The notes under the pieces: generated by a model
What the model was told of the DNA's origin: nothing
Database searches by the model: none
Seen by the model: only the letters and a program-made list of their open reading frames with translations
NCBI RefSeq assembly: GCF_000332095.2
Contig: NZ_KI913950.1
Coordinates: 80,125 to 144,124 of the forward strand
Source: Leptolyngbya sp. PCC 6406
GTDB lineage: Bacteria; Cyanobacteriota; Cyanobacteriia; Phormidesmidales; Phormidesmidaceae
DNA: 64,000 bases
Reading direction: 5' to 3'
Translations under genes and position numbers: made by a program
Shown here: in pieces, positions 3,591-62,010 of the stretch
Numbering within the stretch: position 1 is the stretch's first letter
Layout: every line of letters starts with the position of its first letter

Positions 3591-4310
3591 ATGATGGCGC
3601 TGGCGATTCGTCCCCTGATTGAAGCCCAATATGCTGCCCAAGTACAGGCGTTTGAGCGCTCCCCCTGGTTTGAGCGCCTAGAGCAAGGACAGGCATCTGC
3701 CCAAGAGTACGATGCTTTAATTTTTAACCTCTGTCAGACCCATCTCAAAAGCCCCCAAATCCTGGCTTTTCTCTACGCCGTGGCACCGCCAGCCGCAGCG
3801 CCCCAAATCAAACACAATCTGCTCGAAGAACTGGGGCTGGATGAGGTGGCGATCTGCCACCCCGATTTGCTGTATCTACTGGCGACAGCCGCCGGGTTTG
3901 ATGACGATCGGCAGGCCCGTTTAGCCCAAGCGGCCCAGGCTCAAATCCGGCAGCTTTGCACCGATCCGCTGCTGTTTGGCACGATACAGGAACTGGGGCT
4001 GTCGGTGCTGCTAGAGGTGACCTGCTTCGAGTGGATGCTCTCTCGGTTGGCTGGGCGCATGGGCCATGCCTTGGCAACCTATCGCGGCTTGCCCCCAGAG
4101 AGTCTGGTCTGGTTTCATCACCATTCTGAGGTTGATATTCGCCACGCCGAGGAAGGGTTAGACAGCGTTGAGCAATACCTGGCCTATTACGAGATCGAGG
4201 CTGAGGATCTAGAGACGATTCTCGACATTACCTTCCGCGAAAACATTTTTATCAAGCGATATTTCGCCGACCTGCCCCAGCTTGCCGGATCTGCCCATGA
4301 AAATCGTTGA
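3591..4310 (+). CDS. Haem-oxygenase-like diiron oxidase/oxygenase (HDO; iron-containing redox enzyme family)
   Basis: About 239 residues, all-helical, in the TENA/haem-oxygenase-like superfamily that includes the N-oxygenase and desaturase/lyase enzymes of the HDO group (UndA, BesC and SznF are characterised members). Candidate metal ligands are visible: the acidic helix IKHNLLEELG, CFEWML, and the late HHHSEVDIRHAEEGLD segment with the paired His/Glu expected for a cofactor built from Fe and O2. Substrates of known members are fatty acids or amino acids, so the substrate here is not predictable. The start is set at the ATG at 3591 because AGAGG stands 6 bp upstream; an in-frame TTG at 3564 is less likely. 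It is the first gene of a five-gene operon and its stop lies inside the next gene (14 bp overlap), so the products should act together. Confidence 0.8.
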   Translation: MMALAIRPLIEAQYAAQVQAFERSPWFERLEQGQASAQEYDALIFNLCQTHLKSPQILAFLYAVAPPAAAPQIKHNLLEELGLDEVAICHPDLLYLLATAAGFDDDRQARLAQAAQAQIRQLCTDPLLFGTIQELGLSVLLEVTCFEWMLSRLAGRMGHALATYRGLPPESLVWFHHHSEVDIRHAEEGLDSVEQYLAYYEIEAEDLETILDITFRENIFIKRYFADLPQLAGSAHENR

Positions 4311-5487
4311 GGCTACCCTGTTTGCCCTGGGGATTCCCTTTGTCGAAGCCTTTGCCCACAGCGTTCGCTCCCGCAATAGTTCAGATTCAATCGTGGTGCG
4401 GCTCCGGGCTGAGGACGGCACCGTCGGCTATGGAGAAGCGGTGGCTCGGCCCTACGTCACAGGAGAAACCGTGGCGAGCTGTTTGCAATTTATGGAAAGG
4501 ACGCTATGGCCTGGAGTGCAAGCGTTCGACTATCCCAATTGGTCAGGCCAGGAGCCGATTCCTTGGCTCAGGGCGTTGGCGGTGCCGACAGGGCACTCTG
4601 ATAAGGTCGTTGTCAATGCTGGGGGTATGGCTGCTGAAAGTGTAGTGGCCTGGAATGCGGCTCGGTGCGGCTTTGAGCTGGCCCTGGTCGATTGTTTGCT
4701 GAAATCTGCCGGGGTTTCCCTGGGGGAACTCTTGCCGCCTCGGCGCTCGGTGACCTACAGCGGCGTGATCACAGCTAGCAGCATTGAAGGGGCAGTGAAA
4801 CACGCCAAGCGGTTTAAGCAGTTTGGTTTGCCCCACTTGAAGGTGAAGATTACAGGGGAGGCGGATTACGAACGGCTGGCGGCGATCCGGGCGGCGGTGG
4901 GGCCGCAGGTGTCGCTGCGGGTGGATGGCAATGGAGCCTACACCGTAGAAAGTGCGATCGCGACCTGTGAGGCTCTGGCAGAATTTCAGATCGACAGCGC
5001 CGAGCAAATGATTCCGCGCGGTGACCCCCAGGATTTAGCAAGGGTACAAGCGGCCTCAGTCATGGCCCAAATGGCGGATGAATCCTTGATTACCCTGGCG
5101 GATGCCAAGGCGCTGATTGAGGCTGGGGCCTGCCGAGGCTTCAATCTGCGGCTGTCGAAATGCGGGGGGCTGGGGCCAACCCTTGCGATCGCAGATTTAG
5201 CCCAGACTGCTGGCATCCAGGTGCAAGTAGGCTGCCAGGTGGGCGAGACGGCAATTCTCTCTGCTGCTGGACGACACCTGGCGGCCTATTTGCCAGAGAT
5301 TAGCTTTTGCGAAGGGTCCTACGGCAGCCTGTTATTGCGGGAAGATCTGAGTCGTCGCCCGATTCACTTTGGCCATCAAGGCTTGGCTAAACCCCTAAAG
5401 GTGCCAGGGTTGGGGGTCGAGATTCAGGATGCCCTGCTAGAAAAATATGCTGAGCAGATAATTACCCTTCCAACCCAGGTGGCGTGA
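4297..5487 (+). CDS. Enolase-superfamily enzyme (muconate-lactonizing/dipeptide-epimerase type)
   Basis: A 396-residue protein with an N-terminal capping domain and a C-terminal TIM-barrel. It shows the superfamily catalytic set: Lys182-x-Lys184 (LKVKITG), metal ligands Asp210 (RVDGNGAY), Glu236 (SAEQMIP) and Asp261 (MADES), and Lys288 (LSKCGG). Two opposed lysines with three carboxylates mean it can abstract a proton alpha to a carboxylate. Relatives racemise or epimerise amino acids and dipeptides, cycloisomerise muconate or dehydrate SHCHC (MenC), and sequence alone does not tell which. The start at 4297 (MKIVEATL) fits the family and overlaps the upstream HDO stop; an ATG at 4282 is also in frame. 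The GH3 gene follows after 4 bp. In context it may set stereochemistry or isomerise an acid before GH3 conjugation. Confidence 0.87.
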   Translation: MKIVEATLFALGIPFVEAFAHSVRSRNSSDSIVVRLRAEDGTVGYGEAVARPYVTGETVASCLQFMERTLWPGVQAFDYPNWSGQEPIPWLRALAVPTGHSDKVVVNAGGMAAESVVAWNAARCGFELALVDCLLKSAGVSLGELLPPRRSVTYSGVITASSIEGAVKHAKRFKQFGLPHLKVKITGEADYERLAAIRAAVGPQVSLRVDGNGAYTVESAIATCEALAEFQIDSAEQMIPRGDPQDLARVQAASVMAQMADESLITLADAKALIEAGACRGFNLRLSKCGGLGPTLAIADLAQTAGIQVQVGCQVGETAILSAAGRHLAAYLPEISFCEGSYGSLLLREDLSRRPIHFGHQGLAKPLKVPGLGVEIQDALLEKYAEQIITLPTQVA

Positions 5488-10222: not shown

Positions 10223-12031
10223 TCACCTGATTTCTGCTTCAGCACCCTCCCCTGGCGGTTCAGGCAACAGTTGTTCTGCCTGCACGATGCGCTGCCGGAG
10301 TCCCGAGAGGATCGCCTCCGGGCTGATCTGAGTGCTGGCCTGGGTGAGATAGGGCATGAGGTAGGGCTCCCAAAGAGCGGTAGTTTCCTGGGCACGCCTG
10401 ATCTCACCTTTAGGCAAAGGAATGCGGAGACTGTAGGGAATCAAACCCTCATGGCCAGAGCGATAGGCGGGATTGGTAATGATGCACTGTCCCTCAATGA
10501 ACCGCAGGATTTGGTCCGGGGTAAAGAGGGGCATCTTTTGTAGAGACTCATTCCAGTTGATGCTCTGGGTCGCCCGAGCCGCCATAGTGCGGCCCCGAGA
10601 CCGCTGCTTGAGAGCTACATCCTTCTCTCCAAAGCGCTTGCTGTAGAGTTCTGCGGTCTTGATATCGCCTGGATTGAACAGAAAATGGGTGCCACAGGCC
10701 GCAGAGATAGCCTCCCCCATCTTGTCGCCATAGGTGTCATAGAGCTGATTCAGGGACTGCACCCCCAGGATGAAGCAACCGCCATTGGAGCGATACTCGT
10801 TAATCCACTGGGGTAAGCGGTCGAGGCGTAGAGAAGGCAACTTGTCGATGGCGATGGCAATGGGATCAGGGCGAGGACTGCTGAGGTTCTTGACCACACA
10901 GAGATGAATGGCGGCGGCCAGCAAAGGGCCAATGACACTGCGGCGGGCATCGTCAAGCTTGAAGATAATGATCTGCTTACCCTGGATGCGAGCAGGAATG
11001 GTGGAGGAACCCACAAAACTAGGTAAAAGGTCGCGTTGAATAAAACTGCTGAAGGTAGCGGCAGTCGTGGTGATGATGCCGGAGACCGTCTTCTCGGCAC
11101 CCTTCGCGCTGAGGAATTGATTAAAGCTAGCAGCGACCCAAGGATTGAGGCGCTGGGTCTGTACAGCGTAGTCAAGCCGATGAACCAAGTCGGGGAGCTG
11201 TAGAAAGGCGTAGACCATGGCCATATCGGGGAAAGGGGTATCTCGGGCCAACTGCATCAAGCCCTTCGCCAGTTGTTCCCCGGCCTTAGTGAAGAACTCA
11301 TCACTGCGCCCCCCTTGAGTAGATTGGGCATTGCGGGTGATGACCGCCCCCAGTTCCCCCGCCATGACGGCATCAGCAGAGTCGCGCAGGAATTCGATGG
11401 GGTTGAGCACCCCGCTATAGGGTTCACCGGGGGCAAAGACATGGACCTGGTAACCGTAGCGAGCGGCCAGAGGAGCGTGGAGGCGCATCTGGTCGCCCTT
11501 CTTGTCATAGAGCAAGACGGGAATGCCTTGAGCTAAGGCCGATTCCACCATAGGGTCGATAGCACTGGCGGTTTTCCCAGAGCCGGGATTACCCAATACC
11601 AGGACACTGCGCTGGGCATCGGGGAGCCAGAGTGCGGGCATGGCCCCCATCAAGGTTTGTAGCCTTGCCCCCAGCCCCCGCCAGCGGCCACCCCACCAGA
11701 ACTGAGGCATCTTGCCCGCCCAGAGGACAAGGCGGTTAGGGGGGACCGGGGGGTGTGGTTTCCTTGAGGGCGGGTTGAGCGTTCGGGGTTGACGGTGGTG
11801 ATGGCCCAGCTTAGGGGGGAGATAGGTGCTGGGTAAGCGCAATTGCTTCAGGGCAGTGCTGGTGGCCGCCAATCGTTCAGCCGTCCCGACAGTGCGACCG
11901 GTAGAGAGTTTTCCTGTGTTGTCATTGAGCAGCACCATCATTCCCACCAACGTGGCAAAGGCCCCCAACATCAAGAAGCCCTGGGGATTGTTGTACTGCT
12001 GAAGGAGCGCGCCGAGGTCAATGCCAAACAT
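10223..12031 (-). CDS. Type IV secretion coupling protein (VirD4/TraG/TraD-like ATPase)
   Basis: A 602-residue coupling ATPase that brings the relaxase-DNA complex to a type IV secretion channel. A hydrophobic N-terminal segment (about 19-35) anchors it. Walker A GNPGSGKT is at 147-154. LLYDKKGDQ, NPIEFLRDSADAVMAGEL and the C-terminal GVQSLNQL, FLFNPGD and ELYSKRFGE blocks are typical TraG/VirD4 elements. The Walker B segment reads IAIAIDKLPSL, so Lys stands where most relatives have the catalytic Glu (DE). Whether ATPase activity survives is uncertain, although this may be a lineage feature. It is divergent from the acidic-tailed protein at 12119. The relaxase that would feed it is at 44961-45857. 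Confidence 0.9.
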   Translation of the reverse strand: MFGIDLGALLQQYNNPQGFLMLGAFATLVGMMVLLNDNTGKLSTGRTVGTAERLAATSTALKQLRLPSTYLPPKLGHHHRQPRTLNPPSRKPHPPVPPNRLVLWAGKMPQFWWGGRWRGLGARLQTLMGAMPALWLPDAQRSVLVLGNPGSGKTASAIDPMVESALAQGIPVLLYDKKGDQMRLHAPLAARYGYQVHVFAPGEPYSGVLNPIEFLRDSADAVMAGELGAVITRNAQSTQGGRSDEFFTKAGEQLAKGLMQLARDTPFPDMAMVYAFLQLPDLVHRLDYAVQTQRLNPWVAASFNQFLSAKGAEKTVSGIITTTAATFSSFIQRDLLPSFVGSSTIPARIQGKQIIIFKLDDARRSVIGPLLAAAIHLCVVKNLSSPRPDPIAIAIDKLPSLRLDRLPQWINEYRSNGGCFILGVQSLNQLYDTYGDKMGEAISAACGTHFLFNPGDIKTAELYSKRFGEKDVALKQRSRGRTMAARATQSINWNESLQKMPLFTPDQILRFIEGQCIITNPAYRSGHEGLIPYSLRIPLPKGEIRRAQETTALWEPYLMPYLTQASTQISPEAILSGLRQRIVQAEQLLPEPPGEGAEAEIR

Positions 12032-36066: not shown

Positions 36067-36750
36067 TTATGGGTTGGTCTTAATCCCCGCCAATATCCCC
36101 GTCAAGATTAGAGCGATCGCAGACTCGGTCAGCCGCTCAATGGCTTCTGGAGTGAACCACTCAAACTCTGGCCGCACGTTTCGCATATTCGGCTGTGCGT
36201 TGAAGTAAAACGTGCAGATCGCCATAATGTGGTTCACCACCAGCCAGGGATCGACCGAGCGAAATGTACCGTCTTCGATCCCCTGTTCGACAACGGCCAC
36301 AACTCGATTGATGGGACCATCCCATCCGGTTAAGTGAAAATACTTCCCCTGATTCTCCATGGCTTCATGGAGGAGCACTCGCCCATAATCGGGATGACTG
36401 ACTTCATGGGCAATGGCTACCCGAATCACGGTCTTGATTGCTTCATCGGGAGGCATTTGCTCTAAGTCTAGCCCCTTAAAGGCATTAGCAAAATCTGCTG
36501 CGGGTCGTTCCAGGACCGCTTTGTATAGCTCATCTTTACTGCTGAAGTAGTAGTAAATCATGGCCTTGGTCACACCCGTTCGGGCTGCGATCGCATCCGT
36601 TTTAGCTCCAGCAAAGCCAAAGCGAGCAAACTCTTCTTCAGCCGCCGCCAAAATCTCTGCCCGAGTTGCCTCTGCATCACGGGTTTGCCGAATCGCAGTT
36701 CGCCCTGCCTTCGCCGCCAATGTGCCTAAAGTCCCTACCAAGCTACCCAC
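36067..36750 (-). CDS. TetR family regulator, divergent from psbA
   Basis: 227 residues. The HTH is TRAEILAAAEEEFARFGFAG to GVTKAMIYYYFSSKDELYK, followed by a helical ligand-binding domain ending LTESAIALILTGILAG. It reads away from psbA. The 282 bp between them contains two perfect inverted repeats around a promoter for psbA (36821-36885), so this protein is the likely repressor of that psbA copy. Regulators of this type respond to small hydrophobic molecules. Confidence 0.9.
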   Translation of the reverse strand: MGSLVGTLGTLAAKAGRTAIRQTRDAEATRAEILAAAEEEFARFGFAGAKTDAIAARTGVTKAMIYYYFSSKDELYKAVLERPAADFANAFKGLDLEQMPPDEAIKTVIRVAIAHEVSHPDYGRVLLHEAMENQGKYFHLTGWDGPINRVVAVVEQGIEDGTFRSVDPWLVVNHIMAICTFYFNAQPNMRNVRPEFEWFTPEAIERLTESAIALILTGILAGIKTNP

Positions 36751-36820
36751 TTAGGATACAGCGTAGGGCTCAGCCGCAACCACTGACCAAACCAAGATAC
36801 AAAGACAAAATGAGCCCGCT

Positions 36821-36885
36821 AACTAACTGGAAAGTTAGTTGTTGACACCCTGGAAGCCCTGGGTTACATTAACTAACGAGTTAGT
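36821..36885 (+). promoter_or_regulatory. psbA promoter bracketed by two TetR-type operators
   Basis: Operator 1 AACTAACTGGAAAGTTAGTT (36821-36840) has perfect 8-bp arms. TTGACA (36842-36847) and TACATT (36865-36870) are 17 bp apart, a near-consensus sigma-70 promoter reading toward psbA. Operator 2 ACTAACGAGTTAGT (36872-36885) overlaps the expected start point. The two operators share the ACTAAC/GTTAGT half-site, as expected for one repressor. Confidence 0.8.
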
Positions 36886-37044
36886 CAGTAGTGCGTCTGC
36901 CTCTACGGCTAACCTGCCTGTTTAGCCTGAGTGATGCTTTATCGCGTCAGATGTCGTCAGTAATTTGGATCGGCCTTTGACGCTCTAAAAAAGCAGTAAT
37001 TAGCCTGAACAGACGAATTTTGCTGTTTTTTAATGACTATCCAT

Positions 37045-49019: not shown

Positions 49020-49317
49020 GTGATTCAAATGCTTAGGTGAGTAATATATTATCGCAGCAAATTGGCACTGGTTCGCTAACAGGAGATGGATGGCTGAAAG
49101 CCTTGCTGGACAAGTGTTTTCATGATTTTAGGTTGAATCGCCTCAAACCATGACTGCATAAGAGCTTTGAAGGTTTATCACCGATTAAGAGACCAGTGCC
49201 GCAAATTTAACGGCAAAACGCAGCGGCGGCAGATAACCTTGGAACTATCACCAGCGAATTTCAACCGTTCGCTACCGTGACGTGTTAGGTGACTGGCCAC
49301 TGAACAGGCTTCTTTTA
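49020..49317. other. Intergenic, possible insertion-element scar
   Basis: No gene. AAGTGTTTTCATGATTTT (about 49114) resembles a segment near 3465. A short basic-coding-like stretch (about 49165-49230) suggests a decayed gene, but nothing is recognisable. Confidence 0.4.
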
Positions 49318-55858: not shown

Positions 55859-56923
55859 TGAAGTGCATCACCTAGAAGCGTCCCGTAGAGAGGCTCATAG
55901 GATAGTCTGATGTTTCCTACAACAAAAAGACACCCTATGAGCTATATCCAGCTTAGCGCTTCTGAGCGAAATCAAGTTTACGAATTGAGAATGACAACCG
56001 CATTGTCGATGCGTGCTATTGCTCGGCAAGTTGGACGAGATCAGAGCACCATATCGCGAGAAATAGCCCGCAATCGAAGCGAAGGAGGACATTACTTACC
56101 CGACAGCGCCCATCAGAAAATGCAGGCTCGACGACAGCAATCAAAGACAGCTTTTAGTTGTGTAACAGAGAACTGTATTTTCGAGATCAAACAACGCCTG
56201 AAGCAGTACCACAGTCCTGAGCAAATCGCTGGACGACTGAAGCGAGAAGGCGGATCGCGGATCAGTCATGAAACGATTTATCAGATGATCTATGCCAACC
56301 ATGAAGGCTTGAAGGAATACCAGAAGTATTTACGGCAGGGGCGAGGCAAGCGTCGTAAGCGAGGGGGCTGTAACTCAAGGCGTGGGCAGATCCCAGGGCG
56401 TATAGGGATAGAACATCGGCCTGCGATAGCGGATGCCAAGACTGAAATAGGTCATTGGGAAAGTGACACGATGATTGGGGGGAACCATAATGGCGTGATT
56501 GTGACCCACGTGGACAAAGCATCGAAGTTTTTAGTGGCTGGGCTAGGTAAAAATAAAACGTCTTCCGAAGTCAATAAGGTGACGATTGAGCGCTTCACTC
56601 AGATTCCAAAAACACAACGAAAAACGATGACATTTGACAATGGCAAGGAGTTTAGTGGTCATGCAGAGTTAGGCAAGGAGTTAGGATTATTGTGTTATTT
56701 TACCAATCCTTATCATTCCTGGGAGCGTGGATTAAATGAACATACGAATGGATTATTAAGACAGTTTTTTCCAAAGCAAACAAACTTCAGAATAGTGAAG
56801 CCAGAAGCATTAGAAAAAGCAGTCATACTGATTAACAAAAGACCAAGAAAATCGCTTGACTACAAAACACCATTCGAAGTATTCTGTCTAGATACACCAG
56901 GCACTGATGCACTTCAGATTTGA
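55859..56923 (+). mobile_element. IS30-family insertion sequence
   Basis: TGAAGTGCATCA (55859-55870) and its inverse TGATGCACTTCA (56905-56916) mark the ends; the transposase lies between them and overruns the right repeat by 7 bp. Size about 1.06 kb, normal for IS30. Target duplication not determined. Confidence 0.8.
55937..56923 (+). CDS. IS30 family transposase
   Basis: 328 residues from ATG 55937. The N-terminal HTH is QLSASERNQVYELRMTTALS to STISREIARN, and the DDE domain has Asp in HWESDTMIGG, Asp in TMTFDNGKEFSG and Glu in ERGLNEHTNGLLRQFFP. Full length and apparently intact, so the element may be active. Upstream ATG 55910 is an alternative start. Confidence 0.93.
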   Translation: MSYIQLSASERNQVYELRMTTALSMRAIARQVGRDQSTISREIARNRSEGGHYLPDSAHQKMQARRQQSKTAFSCVTENCIFEIKQRLKQYHSPEQIAGRLKREGGSRISHETIYQMIYANHEGLKEYQKYLRQGRGKRRKRGGCNSRRGQIPGRIGIEHRPAIADAKTEIGHWESDTMIGGNHNGVIVTHVDKASKFLVAGLGKNKTSSEVNKVTIERFTQIPKTQRKTMTFDNGKEFSGHAELGKELGLLCYFTNPYHSWERGLNEHTNGLLRQFFPKQTNFRIVKPEALEKAVILINKRPRKSLDYKTPFEVFCLDTPGTDALQI

Positions 56924-57621: not shown

Positions 57622-57692
57622 GGCAATTGTCGAGCCTTCACATTGCTCAGCGGCTACCGAAGACTTGCACCATAACACCAACCAACTTTGTA

Positions 57693-57718
57693 GTCCGCTG
57701 CAACGGCGTTGTTCTGCC
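57693..57718 (+). other. attC-like half-site
   Basis: TCCGCTGCAACGGCGTTGTT ends an apparent attC right arm; the 19-bp core TCCGCTGCAACGGCGTTGT recurs at 59825-59843. The matching left arm is not clear, and the nearby MITE may have broken the site. Confidence 0.45.
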
Positions 57719-57770
57719 GCGCTTGGAGCGAGAGCTTTAACCACTCCAAACGATACCACAGACATATCTT

Positions 57771-57787
57771 GTCAAGTGACACTTGAC
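57771..57787. promoter_or_regulatory. Operator-like inverted repeat before the XRE gene
   Basis: GTCAAGTGACACTTGAC is a perfect dyad (8-bp arms, 1-bp centre). A further CTTGACA (57818-57824) follows near the start. Likely autoregulatory site of the XRE protein. Confidence 0.7.
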
Positions 57788-57839
57788 GCTCCGCCTAGTC
57801 AGGATGTAAAGTAATACTTGACAGTGAACAGGCAGCCCC

Positions 57840-58505
57840 ATGAAAAATCGACTGAAAGAACTTCGACAACTGCATCAATGGTCACAATCTGACCTTGCTA
57901 GAGAGTTAGGAGTCAGTCGTCAGGCGGTGAATGGGTTTGAGTCAGGTAAATTTGACCCCAGCCTAGATATGGCATTCAAAATTGCCAACCTGTTTCAAGT
58001 CGCAATCGAAGATGTTTTCATTTACGAGGCAAAGCACTCTATGCAGACACTAGTTGAGCGGGTTAAAAATTTCTTTGGCTTTGAGTTTGGATTCGAGCGG
58101 TTTACGGAAAAGGCAATCAACGCACTCAATTTTGCTCGCAATGAGGCGACACGATCGCAGAACTCGCAAGTTGAACCCGAACACCTCCTGGCTGGCTTGT
58201 TGGCTGATTCAACCACCACTTCTGCTCGTTTACTTCGGGCCAACGGTGTGACGTTGGATATCGAAACCAATGAGCATTCGTTTGAATTTCGTGAGAATTT
58301 AGAGTTCAGTCCACAAAGTAAGTTCGTTCTAGAGCTTGCCCTGCAAATTGTTCGGCTTCAGGGTAAGAAGTCGATTGGAACGGAGCATCTCTTGTGGGGA
58401 GTAGTCCGACTCGCTGAAACAGACAAAGCTACTTTGAGCGAACTGTTTCAACGTTACGAAATTGATGCCGTAGCCTTGAACAATCAGCTCACAGAAACGG
58501 TTTAA
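57840..58505 (+). CDS. XRE-type HTH regulator fused to a Clp-N domain
   Basis: 221 residues. The N-terminal 65 are an XRE helix-turn-helix of the YozG/small-repressor type (LKELRQLHQWSQSDLARELG to VSRQAVNGFESGKFDPSL). Residues 80-215 hold Clp N-domain repeats (ALNFARNEATRSQNSQVEPE, HLLAGLLADSTTTSARLLRA and IGTEHLLWGVVRLAETDKAT), the module that binds substrates in ClpA/ClpC. There is no ATPase. A repressor whose stability or activity is set by Clp adaptor or substrate binding is one reading. Probably a gene cassette: an attC-like site follows 120 bp downstream. Confidence 0.85.
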   Translation: MKNRLKELRQLHQWSQSDLARELGVSRQAVNGFESGKFDPSLDMAFKIANLFQVAIEDVFIYEAKHSMQTLVERVKNFFGFEFGFERFTEKAINALNFARNEATRSQNSQVEPEHLLAGLLADSTTTSARLLRANGVTLDIETNEHSFEFRENLEFSPQSKFVLELALQIVRLQGKKSIGTEHLLWGVVRLAETDKATLSELFQRYEIDAVALNNQLTETV

Positions 58506-58536
58506 TTCAGGCTAAAGAACGACTCAAACTACCCTA

Positions 58537-58575
58537 CACCTACTAGATCTTCAAGATCTTGGTAGGTGCTTTTTT
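58537..58575 (+). terminator. Terminator of the XRE-Clp-N gene
   Basis: CACCTAC and GTAGGTG arms plus an inner AGATCTT/AAGATCT stem, followed by CTTTTTTG. Confidence 0.8.
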
Positions 58576-58627
58576 GTTCATCCCACCAATAAGCTTCAAA
58601 TCACTGCCGTCACCCGAAACGTAAGCA

Positions 58628-58714
58628 GCAGAACGACCAAGTTCACCGGACGCAAATAACCTTTGCCACTCAATCAATCAATTTGGCACGTTCCGGTGCC
58701 GCGACTGGTTAGAC
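58628..58714 (+). other. Integron attC-like recombination site
   Basis: Right core GTTAGAC (58708-58714, fits GTTRRRY) and left GCAGAAC (58628-58634) enclose inverted arms CACCGGA/TCCGGTG. Size 87 bp, within attC range. It overlaps the 3' end of the reversed alpha/beta-hydrolase gene. No integrase is in the window. Confidence 0.65.
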
Positions 58715-59715
58715 TCACGGCGCATTTCACTGCTATGAATAAATTGACTTATCCCTTCAACGAGTTCAGGCACAACTGGCAGCGTTGGGTCAGAATAGGA
58801 AGCATTTTGCTGTTCAGGGTCTAATGAAACAGCTTTTAAGACGTGATTCATCCCCTCAATAATTCTAAGCTCCGCATCCGGCTTAGCTATTTTCAGGGCT
58901 TGCGCCTCACTGACAGGTACTTGGATATCAGTTGTTCCTTGAACAATTAGAACAGGTACAGTGAGACGCCTAATCTCTTGAGCAGGGGTGTAGCGGAACC
59001 AGGAAATGAGGTAGGGTTGGACGCTCGATCTGTAGAGCATGTTTAGTTCTGGTGGAATAGAGGTCACTATGTTACCTTGCTCCAGAGCAGCAAGAATCTG
59101 CTCATTCTGTTGCCATAATGCATCTGGCAAGCTAGGTCGCAGTTGATCTCGTAAAACTTGTGATGCAGTTTGGGCAATTCCGGTGATTGATACAAAAGCA
59201 TCTGCTCCGGTTTTTTGGGTTGCCAGCATTCCGATCAGAGAGCCTTCGCTGTGACCAATTACGGTGATGCTTGAGAAACGAGAATCTGCCTGCAATTGCT
59301 GAATCCAAAGTGCAGCATCTTCAACATAGGTATCGAAACGCAAATCAGCTTCTTCAAGTCCTGCGACTGCGCTTTCTCCAATCCCGCGCTTGTCATATCG
59401 GATTGAGGCAATGCCATGATCCGCTAATCCTTCAGCGAGGAGTTTGAGGCTATTATTCTGCCCAGCTAGAGGATTGTTTCCATTGCGATCAGTCGGACCT
59501 GAACCCGCAATGATCAGCACCACTGGCTCTGGCAGATTAGAAGTTGGAATAATCTGTGTGCCATAGAGAGTGCCTGTTGATGTTGTAATGTGAACCTCGG
59601 CAGGCGTTGAGGATTTTGTCATATAACCTACAAACAGCAGTGATAAAGGTAGAGCTATTAGACAGGGAAACAGACTTACAGAACGGCGAGAATTGGGGGA
59701 TGTAAAGTGAAGCAA
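58678..59715 (-). CDS. Alpha/beta hydrolase (serine aminopeptidase-like), membrane anchored
   Basis: 345 residues with an N-terminal hydrophobic anchor (about 10-32, SVSLFPCLIALPLSLLFVGY). The nucleophile is in VIGHSEGSLIG (GHSEG), the oxyanion loop is IIAGSGPTDRNG, the acid is in VQGTTDIQVP and the His in EGMNHVLKAV. YDKRGIGES is typical of the dienelactone/serine aminopeptidase S33 group. Its last codons lie inside the attC site, so this cassette was captured with its gene in reverse. Confidence 0.88.
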   Translation of the reverse strand: MLHFTSPNSRRSVSLFPCLIALPLSLLFVGYMTKSSTPAEVHITTSTGTLYGTQIIPTSNLPEPVVLIIAGSGPTDRNGNNPLAGQNNSLKLLAEGLADHGIASIRYDKRGIGESAVAGLEEADLRFDTYVEDAALWIQQLQADSRFSSITVIGHSEGSLIGMLATQKTGADAFVSITGIAQTASQVLRDQLRPSLPDALWQQNEQILAALEQGNIVTSIPPELNMLYRSSVQPYLISWFRYTPAQEIRRLTVPVLIVQGTTDIQVPVSEAQALKIAKPDAELRIIEGMNHVLKAVSLDPEQQNASYSDPTLPVVPELVEGISQFIHSSEMRRESNQSRHRNVPN

Positions 59716-59760
59716 TTTATATTGAATCCGTCAAATATTCTAATTTAATGAGATAAGGGA

Positions 59761-59841
59761 GTCTAACGGCTCGGTTCAGCGGACGCAGGTAAGCTTGACA
59801 ACTCAATTAATAGAACTGAACCGTTCCGCTGCAACGGCGTT
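59761..59841 (+). other. attC-like site, the insertion target of the group II intron
   Basis: Left core GTCTAAC (59761-59767) is a perfect RYYYAAC. Arms CAGCGGA (59778) and TCCGCTG (59825) are inverted. The right core stops as GTT at 59839-59841 because the intron begins there. Confidence 0.7.
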
Positions 59842-60209
59842 GTGTACGCCCAGCATGGGCGTGAACTAATGGGGTGAAAGTCCCCTGTGGGAGAACCAGC
59901 CATCCAAATGCTCGCAAGTCATAGGAGCCGAGAGATGGACAACCACTAGCTTAAGGCAAGGGCGTTTCCGCGAGGGAGGGTCTAGAGGAAGCCAGCGGCA
60001 AAAGTGCGAGCCGACGGACAGAAACGTCATATGAAGGCCGAGTCTCTGGGGCGAGTTGGCACAACACAACATAGGCGCAGCCTTCCCGAAGGGTAGCCCG
60101 TTGGTTCAGGGGATACGGTAAATGACGCGGTTGCGCATCGACAGTCCACGTTCTTATCTGGGGAGATCTGCCGCCTTGGCAGTCTTTGAGGCTAAGGGAG
60201 TCTGACTGA

Positions 60210-60790
60210 TACCAAATCCGACTTGTATACCTCCGAAATAGTATAGGGTTGAGAGATGCCAAGACCCCTGCATCTCGAACCTCATTTTTCAGCCGACGAG
60301 CTCAAAGCGCGATATCGCGCTAGCCAAGACCCCGTCGAGTCTCGCCGTTGGCATCTACTGTGGCTGGTTCACACGCAAACGACCTTGACGGATGCGGCTA
60401 AAGCCGTTGGGTTGAACTACGACTACGCCCGCTCCGTTGTGAGAGATTACAACCGTTATGGCGCTGATGGCCTACGCAATCGCCGCAAAGATCAGCGACC
60501 CCAGCAATCTCGTAGTCTGCTCAACGCTGAGCAACTCAGAGACCTGGAGTCTCGGTTGCAATCGCCCCCGGACGATGACGGGGTCTGGAGCGGGCCAAAA
60601 GTTGCTCAGGTCATCGCTGAGGTAACCGGAGTGGTGAAGGTCTGGCCCCAGCGAGGGTGGGACTATCTCAAGCGCTTAGAGCAATCCCTGCAAGTGCCTC
60701 GTCCCCGTCATCGAAAAGGTGACCCTGAAGCCCAGGAGGCGTTTAAAAAAACTCCCAGAACGCACGTCGCCGGAGGCAGAAGTCAGCCGA
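60210..60790 (+). mobile_element. IS630-family insertion sequence, 3'-truncated
   Basis: The left end TACCAAATCCGACTTGTATA matches the left terminus of the MITE at 41762. The right end and the catalytic DDE part are missing. It lies inside the group II intron, so it came later and was then partly deleted together with intron sequence. Confidence 0.75.
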
Positions 60791-60798
60791 GGCCATAG
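60256..60798 (+). pseudogene. IS630 transposase N-terminal ORF
   Basis: About 165 residues of an IS630 transposase (helix-turn-helix YRASQDPVESRRWHLLWLVH, TLTDAAKAVGLNYDYARSVV, RDYNRYGADGLRNRRKDQRP). Near 60747 a TTTAAAAAAAC run matches the slippery site where many IS630 elements shift frame; the other frame continues LPERTSPEAEVSRGHS. The DDE domain, normally in that second part, is absent. Confidence 0.85.
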
Positions 60799-60869
60799 TA
60801 GTCAAATGCTGGCCTGTAATGGGTCAGACAAGGCGAAGGGCCGAACCCAATTGAATCAAAGGAGGAGCG

Positions 60870-61199
60870 ATGGAAAACTCAGACGTTTTGCTGAACTCGT
60901 TCGGGGGAGAAACGGATTGGCGTGGAGTCATGCAGCCAGCCTTAGAGACGAACTTGATGGAGCGAATTCTTGCCCCAGAGAATCTGCACCGGGCATGGAA
61001 GCAAGTGAAGTTCAATAAAGGCGCACCCGGCATAGACGGGATGGTGCTGGACGAGTTTGCGTCCTATGCTCGGCTTCACTGGGACGAGATTCGCCAATCT
61101 TTGCGAGATGGCAGCTATCAACCTTCTCCGGTGCGGCGGGTCATAATCCCGAAGCTGAGAGGGAAGGGAGAGCGATTGCTGGGAGTCCCCACGATTGAC
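60870..61199 (+). pseudogene. ltrA: Group II intron maturase/reverse transcriptase, 5' fragment
   Basis: About 110 residues: MERILAPENLHRAWKQVKFN, KGAPGIDGMVLDEFASYARL and YQPSPVRRVIIPKLRGKGER followed by LLGVPTI, the RT0-RT2 blocks of LtrA-type proteins. It breaks off at 61199 before the catalytic YxDD; a full protein is about 430-600 residues. Start MENSDVLLNSFGG, with AGGAGGAG upstream. Confidence 0.88.
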
Positions 61200-61270
61200 A
61201 CAAACTACTTGACATACCCGATTCGTAAGAATTCTCCCTATCCCGATTCGACTGCGCCACTACTGTACTT

Positions 61271-61606
61271 TTAAGCTGCTCCATACTCTGTGTATGGACG
61301 TTTATAAGGAGGCTGCAAGCCCAACACAATATCCTCTCTGGGCACACCCATTTCAACCAACTCCTCAGCCAGATTCTGGTCGGTCAGGTTCTGCTGGAGC
61401 CAAATTTTTCCATCTTTGATATCGAAATGAATAATACAGCGATAAACCCGGTTGAACTGTTCCCAACCCACATTCATCCACTGGTAATGATCCCGCTCAG
61501 TGTCAAAAATGAGTTGGACTTCGACCACATCGTCCGAAATATCATCTTTGGCATACTGGCTGAGTAACGTCTGAACGTATTTCCGGTATTGAGCTATTTT
61601 GTCCAT
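61271..61606 (-). CDS. xisI: XisI family protein
   Basis: 111 residues. The fdxN excision controlling-factor XisI pattern is present: KYVQTLLSQYAKDD, LIFDTERDHYQWMNVGWEQF and IWLQQNLTDQNLAEELVEMG, then VLGLQPPYKRPYTEY. xisH and xisI were named for their part in excision of the Anabaena fdxN element but occur widely in strains without it. It overlaps xisH by 13 bp and is downstream in the same operon. Confidence 0.93.
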   Translation of the reverse strand: MDKIAQYRKYVQTLLSQYAKDDISDDVVEVQLIFDTERDHYQWMNVGWEQFNRVYRCIIHFDIKDGKIWLQQNLTDQNLAEELVEMGVPREDIVLGLQPPYKRPYTEYGAA

Positions 61607-62010
61607 TGCACAATCACCTCATTAGCTGGATCATACACAACTATCAAGACCTGATACCGTTTTACCGCACTTTGAGTGAACTCGTACTGAAAAAATGTTT
61701 GGTAAACATCCACTGGGATTGCCAGGTATAAACTTCGCTCCGGTTCAACAGACTCCAAAGCCAGACGGTAGCTGAGAAACTGCCCTAATGCAGCATAAAA
61801 ATCCGTAATTGCAGAGGGATTTAAGAAGCTTTTGATCTCGACTGCTATTTTCTCCCCCGCCCGTTCTGCTGCAAGCAATCGCTCTGCACCCAAATCAACT
61901 TGAAAGTTGACGTTGCCAAACTTAAACCGAAGCGGATCGTCAGTAATCGTCCACTGCTCTTTTTGCAACGCGCGTTTTACAGCCTCATGGAAAACATCTT
62001 TGGCAGACAC
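61594..62010 (-). CDS. xisH: XisH family protein
   Basis: 138 residues. It starts MSAKDVFHEAVKRALQKEQW, has DPLRFKFGNVNFQVDLGAER (DPL...DLGAE, nuclease-like core with K in AVEIKSFL) and ends YDPANEVIVQWTK. XisH has a PD-(D/E)XK-like fold and is always paired with XisI. Confidence 0.93.
   Translation of the reverse strand: MSAKDVFHEAVKRALQKEQWTITDDPLRFKFGNVNFQVDLGAERLLAAERAGEKIAVEIKSFLNPSAITDFYAALGQFLSYRLALESVEPERSLYLAIPVDVYQTFFQYEFTQSAVKRYQVLIVVYDPANEVIVQWTK

Follow-up and report, generated by a model that had tools for sequence, protein, structure and literature searches.

A decayed group IIC-attC intron in a probable remnant cassette array of the cyanobacterium Leptolyngbya sp. PCC 6406

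Does a group II intron in a cyanobacterium sit inside an integron attC site, and how much of an integron is left around it? The question is raised by a stretch of 64,000 nucleotides (here called the window; bases 80125-144124 of contig C2) from Leptolyngbya sp. PCC 6406, a filamentous cyanobacterium of a family that includes Nodosilinea, in which an earlier reading made from the sequence alone had noted attC-like sites and an adjoining group II intron. Our answer, to which we give a probability of about 0.92, is that what remains here is a relict cassette array, of the type known as a cluster of attC sites lacking an integron integrase (CALIN), and that a decayed group IIC-attC intron is seated in one of its sites, attC_A. 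The genome consists of three contigs (C1, 5,473,176 bases; C2, 196,465 bases; C3, 107,316 bases; completeness 99.96%), and C2 is probably a plasmid, judging by its size and a type IV coupling protein in the window.

attC sites were scored with two covariance models: R1, from 16 aligned intron 5′ exons of relatives (none from this genome), and R2, from 20 attC sites beside intI genes of relatives. The pattern CGGACGC...CGTTCCG, tried as a general attC probe, found only two known sites, and covariance models were used instead. In the hairpin of the intron 5′ exons the L box contains two extrahelical bases, and the arms covary (43 cells changed on both sides versus 13.0 in shuffles, with none of 500 shuffles as high), as do those of the intI-linked sites (61 versus 18.6). 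Applied to 11 stretches around intI genes, R1 gave 22 matches in nine of them (weakest E = 0.73), every one on the same strand as intI and 5′ of it; no R1 match was found in L104, which ends at a contig end, or in L107. In stretch L100 an R1 match lies near the end of each of four open reading frames (ORFs) that are encoded opposite to intI, and opposite-strand ORFs also lie between the R1 matches of L102. In the window, R2 (scores from a 189,268-base search) finds four attC sites, all on the + strand, so that the + strand is the attC bottom strand. The two sites of the sequence-only reading, at 58628-58714 and 59761-59841, are both upheld by R1 and R2 scores far above chance (Table 1; for attC_A taken as 59758-59847, R2 46.1 bits, E = 4.7 × 10−10; R1 63 bits). 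Its "half-site at 57693" does exist as a site, attC_C, which is whole though weak, while attC_D was missing from its list.

Boundaries derived from full-length relatives (...GT/GTACG ... CCCTATCCCGAT/T) place the 5′ end of the intron at GGCGTTGT/GTACG, position 59844, two bases beyond the start "exactly after GTT" (59842) proposed before; that a group II intron adjoins this site was correct, with its end (...CCCTATCCCGAT) at 61247 instead of 61199. The seat is GGCGTTGT/intron/TCGAC, i.e. TTGT/T in R″ of the attC bottom strand, and attC_A, once rejoined, folds as one hairpin with R″ GTTCGAC facing GTCTAAC. Group II intron families matched at 59964-60152 (RF02001) and 60762-60841 (RF01998), with no match to RF01999. 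The copy is taken to be a dead fragment, because it holds an insert resembling an insertion sequence (IS; its transposase fragment is presumably IS630-like), its intron-encoded protein (IEP) is truncated and no domain V match was found in it. The remaining IEP fragment is 78% identical, over the aligned part, to the intact IEP of the related genome G037. Intact IEPs, taken from G037 and G061, carry RVT_1 and GIIM domains, and a domain search found no endonuclease domain in them; the G037 protein scores 469 bits against the GsI-IIC reverse transcriptase (RT), 352 against 7uim, a further RT/maturase chain of a group II intron, and 133 against LtrA. Because the intact relative is nearest to the GsI-IIC RT and no endonuclease domain was found, the intron is by protein sequence a class C intron, as had been anticipated.

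Read along the minus strand, the array runs xisH-xisI, attC_A, hydrolase, attC_B, inverted XRE-Clp_N gene, degenerate attC_C and a further ORF cut off by an IS. With the attC bottom strand on +, it is the XRE-Clp_N gene that is inverted, and the hydrolase, which the sequence-only reading had called reversed, has the orientation usual for a cassette gene. The intron, on +, runs against the hydrolase and xisHI cassettes, on −, with XRE-Clp_N as the exception. From its position, the xisH-xisI pair likely belongs to the cassette that owns attC_A, and the 179-amino-acid (aa) ORF is possibly a further cassette gene. The transposase that cuts the array is one that we take, from the names of its HTH_38 and rve families, to be IS30-like. 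The array had also been placed next to conjugative genes; the type IV coupling protein of Table 1, found among the ten large window ORFs scanned, lies ~47 kb away.

Table 1. Features of the array and its surroundings (window positions; HTH, helix-turn-helix).
Feature	Position	Strand	Evidence and remarks
Type IV coupling protein	10226-12031		~47 kb from array
attC_D	49202-49290	+ (bottom strand)	R2 57.4 bits, E 3.2e-13; R1 48.8 bits; R″ GTTAGGT; single site
DgkA-like ORF, 123 aa	49318-49689	−	PF01219 66.2 bits; ends 28 nt from attC_D, cassette position
Transposase	55910-56923	+	PF13936 (HTH_38), PF00665 (rve); cuts array on left side
ORF, 179 aa	56932-57471	−	No family above cut-off
attC_C	57626-57716	+	R2 25.1 bits, E 3.9e-4; R1 18.7 bits, E 0.031
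XRE HTH + Clp_N protein	57840-58505	+	PF01381, PF02861
attC_B	58625-58714	+ (bottom strand)	R2 44.5 bits, E 1.3e-9; R1 44.6 bits; R″ GTTAGAC
Alpha/beta hydrolase	58678-59715	−	PF12146, PF00561; attC_B at 3′ end
attC_A, 5′ part	59758-59843	+	To ...GGCGTTGT; intron 5′ exon
Group IIC-attC intron, decayed	59844-61247	+	Both ends kept (GTACG ... CCCGAT)
Foreign insert inside intron	60211-60765 (approximate borders)	+	Transposase fragment ORF 60256-60798; PF13592 and other HTH families
IEP, N-terminal 110 aa	60870-61199	+	Remainder deleted; TIGR04416 positions 2-74 of 353
attC_A, R″ remainder	61248-61254	+	3′ exon TCGACTG
xisI	61271-61606	−	PF08869 156.5 bits; ends ~20 nt from R″ remainder
xisH	61594-62010	−	PF08814 193.2 bits; paired with xisI

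IntegronFinder calls a CALIN where at least two attC sites lie close together. By our own models there are three here within ~2.3 kb (starting at 57626, 58625 and 59758), with no intI in the window and none intact in the genome; the region differs from the known kind in that one attC is weak, one is split by an intron, one cassette gene is inverted and further single attC sites are scattered genome-wide. The lack of an integrase, as first read, extends to the whole genome, where no intI passes the NCBIfam cut-off. What the search for intI elsewhere in the genome did find were two short fossils on C1 (691562-691705, 65% identity over 52 aa with a stop inside the aligned stretch; 3634003-3634116, 80% identity over 44 aa with one stop), the first lying ~2 kb from an attC match on the same strand (C1:693499). 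A 224-aa frame at C1:1076229, considered as a full intI, aligns with IntI only in its C-terminal part (38% over 66 aa) and is probably another tyrosine recombinase. With 150 of the 982 first-look candidates scored genome-wide, R2 matches with E no higher than 1 number at least 34 and are spread across all three contigs; 33 had E = 1.5 × 10−5 or better and the last was the weak window site. Thirty of these 34 sites were fetched, and at 17 of the 25 left after five intron-occupied ones were dropped an ORF of at least 80 aa ended on the predicted side; random positions gave 14.4%, and the mirror image 4 of 25.

How the array came to lie on C2 can be answered only tentatively. Cassettes may have been placed off-target on the plasmid by a chromosomal IntI that has since been lost, an account to which we give somewhat less than even odds: the scatter of attC matches over every contig and the position of both fossils on C1, one with an attC match close by, fit it, and off-target insertion is one route to CALINs proposed in PMC8618304, but the same data would be explained if the array had arrived complete by plasmid transfer, or if the plasmid itself had lost an intI. 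Across the family, intI genes over the cut-off occur in 28 of 60 genomes and R2 matches at E up to 10−5 in 58 of 60, and therefore intron targeting can outlast the integron. Group IIC-attC introns are hereby extended to a cyanobacterial family with near-universal attC matches and intI in under half of its genomes; cyanobacterial integrons as such have already been published (PMC8352920 and PMC8618304).

The seat of the window intron is shared by its relatives. Within the family, 22 of 63 genomes have copies of the intron, and a DNA search of the phylum, with the best two candidates per genome scored, places it in at least 7 of 386 genomes. Among 35 distinct 5′ ends (37 loci, of which L037, L059 and L152 repeat others and L116 has two), a same-strand R2 match ends where the intron begins in 30, one of them weak (E = 0.015), and is split GT/TRRRY; in full copies the rejoined exons give a GTTRRRY-like sequence. 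Intron copies thereby mark attC sites independently of any attC search. L116 (G016:C25) carries two mini-copies, of 95 and 143 nt, with 5′ ends near 1355 and 3181; they have lost almost all of their interior but retain both exact termini, seated in attC sites.

Several points weigh against an attC-seated intron in a cassette array. No attC match was found at five of the 35 5′ ends (L009 and L017 in this genome, L053, L054 and L064), and attC_C is a weak or degenerate site. The scores come from our own R1 and R2 in place of the model of IntegronFinder, and one of the 20 sites in R2 (G023a) is itself intron-occupied. R2 also had matches in 11 of 19 cyanobacteria of other families and none in the other 8, a control that is partial, as integrons may exist in those cyanobacteria too. 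Finally, one copy (L009/L021) lies after a terminator-like hairpin with the same TTGT/T kept, which brings up the alternative of a typical terminator-seeking class C intron beside hairpins that are nothing more than terminators or dispersed repeats; insertion after terminators is the rule for that class according to a review (PMC4424553). We consider this alternative very improbable: R2, although made from intI-adjacent sites, matches the great majority of intron seats, the sites have R and L boxes, two extrahelical bases and strong covariation, and ORF orientation around the free sites fits cassettes. Equally improbable is entry into the attC top strand, with the window + strand as top strand (as the sequence-only reading had implied): near-palindromic R boxes make sequence alone ambiguous, XRE-Clp_N is on + and one top-strand case in Enterobacter cloacae is cited in PMC7923331, but the intI-linked stretches reject it, all their R1 matches being on the intI strand and the L100 cassette genes on the other, and canonical ORFs lie on the opposite strand at 17 of the 25 free sites.

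With a bottom-strand attC seat retained, the nearest known systems are the group IIC-attC introns of class 1 integrons (e.g., S.ma.I2; plasmids L180-L182), whose defining features we take from PMC7923331. Shared with these are a class C IEP, the attC bottom strand as target, the TTGT/T seat in R″, the orientation against the cassettes and a presence in CALINs; the differences are an IEP identity of 51-54%, a cyanobacterial host, a dead copy and a sister lineage without an ORF. In the three plasmid stretches read that have IEPs at that level of identity (H3, H9 and H15), the IEP lies among class 1 integron cassettes and is encoded on the same strand as intI. In the plasmid collection, the best IEP match came from a Methylocalor plasmid (67%), the next listed being at 51-54%. 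A 35-row tree groups the cyanobacterial IEPs in one clade (100/99, open inside) and places the Methylocalor row next to it as sister (99/99); the fork joining the cyanobacterial clade to the integron-borne rows is open. Describing the cyanobacterial introns as a new branch of group IIC-attC introns appears largely right, IEP class, seat and orientation being those of that group. The sister IEP, in two pieces at 4001-5331 of a plasmid of the gammaproteobacterium Candidatus Methylocalor cossyra (L183), hints at a transfer between phyla.

By analogy with the known family, insertion would start with an intron ribonucleoprotein recognizing the folded attC bottom strand, exon-binding site (EBS) 1, in an ACAAC loop, pairing with TTGT and the EBS3 base pairing with T. 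The window intron has a ACAACACAACA loop at 60061-60071 that could pair with TTGT as EBS1. Reverse splicing between GT and TRRRY of R″ would be followed by copying of the intron into DNA by the IEP, and with its R box split at the DNA level the attC should be locked against recombination. The copy later decayed: an IS-like sequence inserted into it, and most of the IEP was deleted, as was domain V.

The more interesting part of the finding is a branch of this intron family without an ORF. Six full-length ORF-less copies (710-734 nt) occur in four genomes, three in this one (C1:2988894, 5081177 and 5108996) and one each in G030, G036 and G037. They share a 145-nt domain IV that is absent from the ORF-bearing copies read; when all loci were compared, its strong matches were to ORF-less copies or their fragments, with a 74% partial match in G040. 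The three copies of this genome end in domain V matches and contain no IEP frame. The copies of this genome are 90-97% identical to one another and 86-89% identical to those of the other genomes, and the 5′ exons of all six differ, placing each at a different target; R2 identifies five of the six seats as attC, the sixth being a terminator-like hairpin. A single loss of the ORF followed by movement in trans would account for these copies better than six separate losses. No intact cognate IEP of this intron family was found in this genome, and the RT genes at C1:1587766 and C2:36210, considered as helpers, share only about 31% and 29% identity with the family IEP and are probably of other kinds. 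It seems probable, with appreciable doubt, that the ORF-less lineage is itself retromobile, behaving like a short interspersed element on attC sites and borrowing an IEP in trans, and that here it has outlived both its own IEP and the integron integrase. The ORF-less group II introns of bacteria described in PMC4424553 likewise lack an IEP, have a domain V match and are believed to rely on a related IEP supplied in trans; the copies here differ in being class IIC, mostly attC-seated and at several different targets, with no intact cognate IEP found. That review states that such introns are rare in bacteria and nearly always accompanied by a related IEP in the same genome, a statement to which the present ORF-less copies, found at different targets in several genomes, are relevant. 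In the searched literature, which included few subscription papers, no report was found of IIC-attC introns in cyanobacteria or of ORF-less IIC-attC introns. The finding is real: the window intron is a decayed member of the IIC-attC introns, in a lineage for which no report was found.

Two of the ORF-less copies (C1:5080454-5081177 and 5108285-5108996) are 96.6% identical and lie ~27 kb apart in the same orientation, one seated in an attC site, the other behind a terminator-like hairpin; such a pair is what is required by a published model in which cassettes form through recombination between introns (PMC7923331). Elsewhere on C2, outside the window, a 663-aa frame at 36210-37022 (L031) carries an RT domain, with a C-terminal part that is presumably Cas1-like. 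At the left end of the window, positions 318-2780 encode a NACHT protein of 820 aa with an NNH2 domain at its N terminus.

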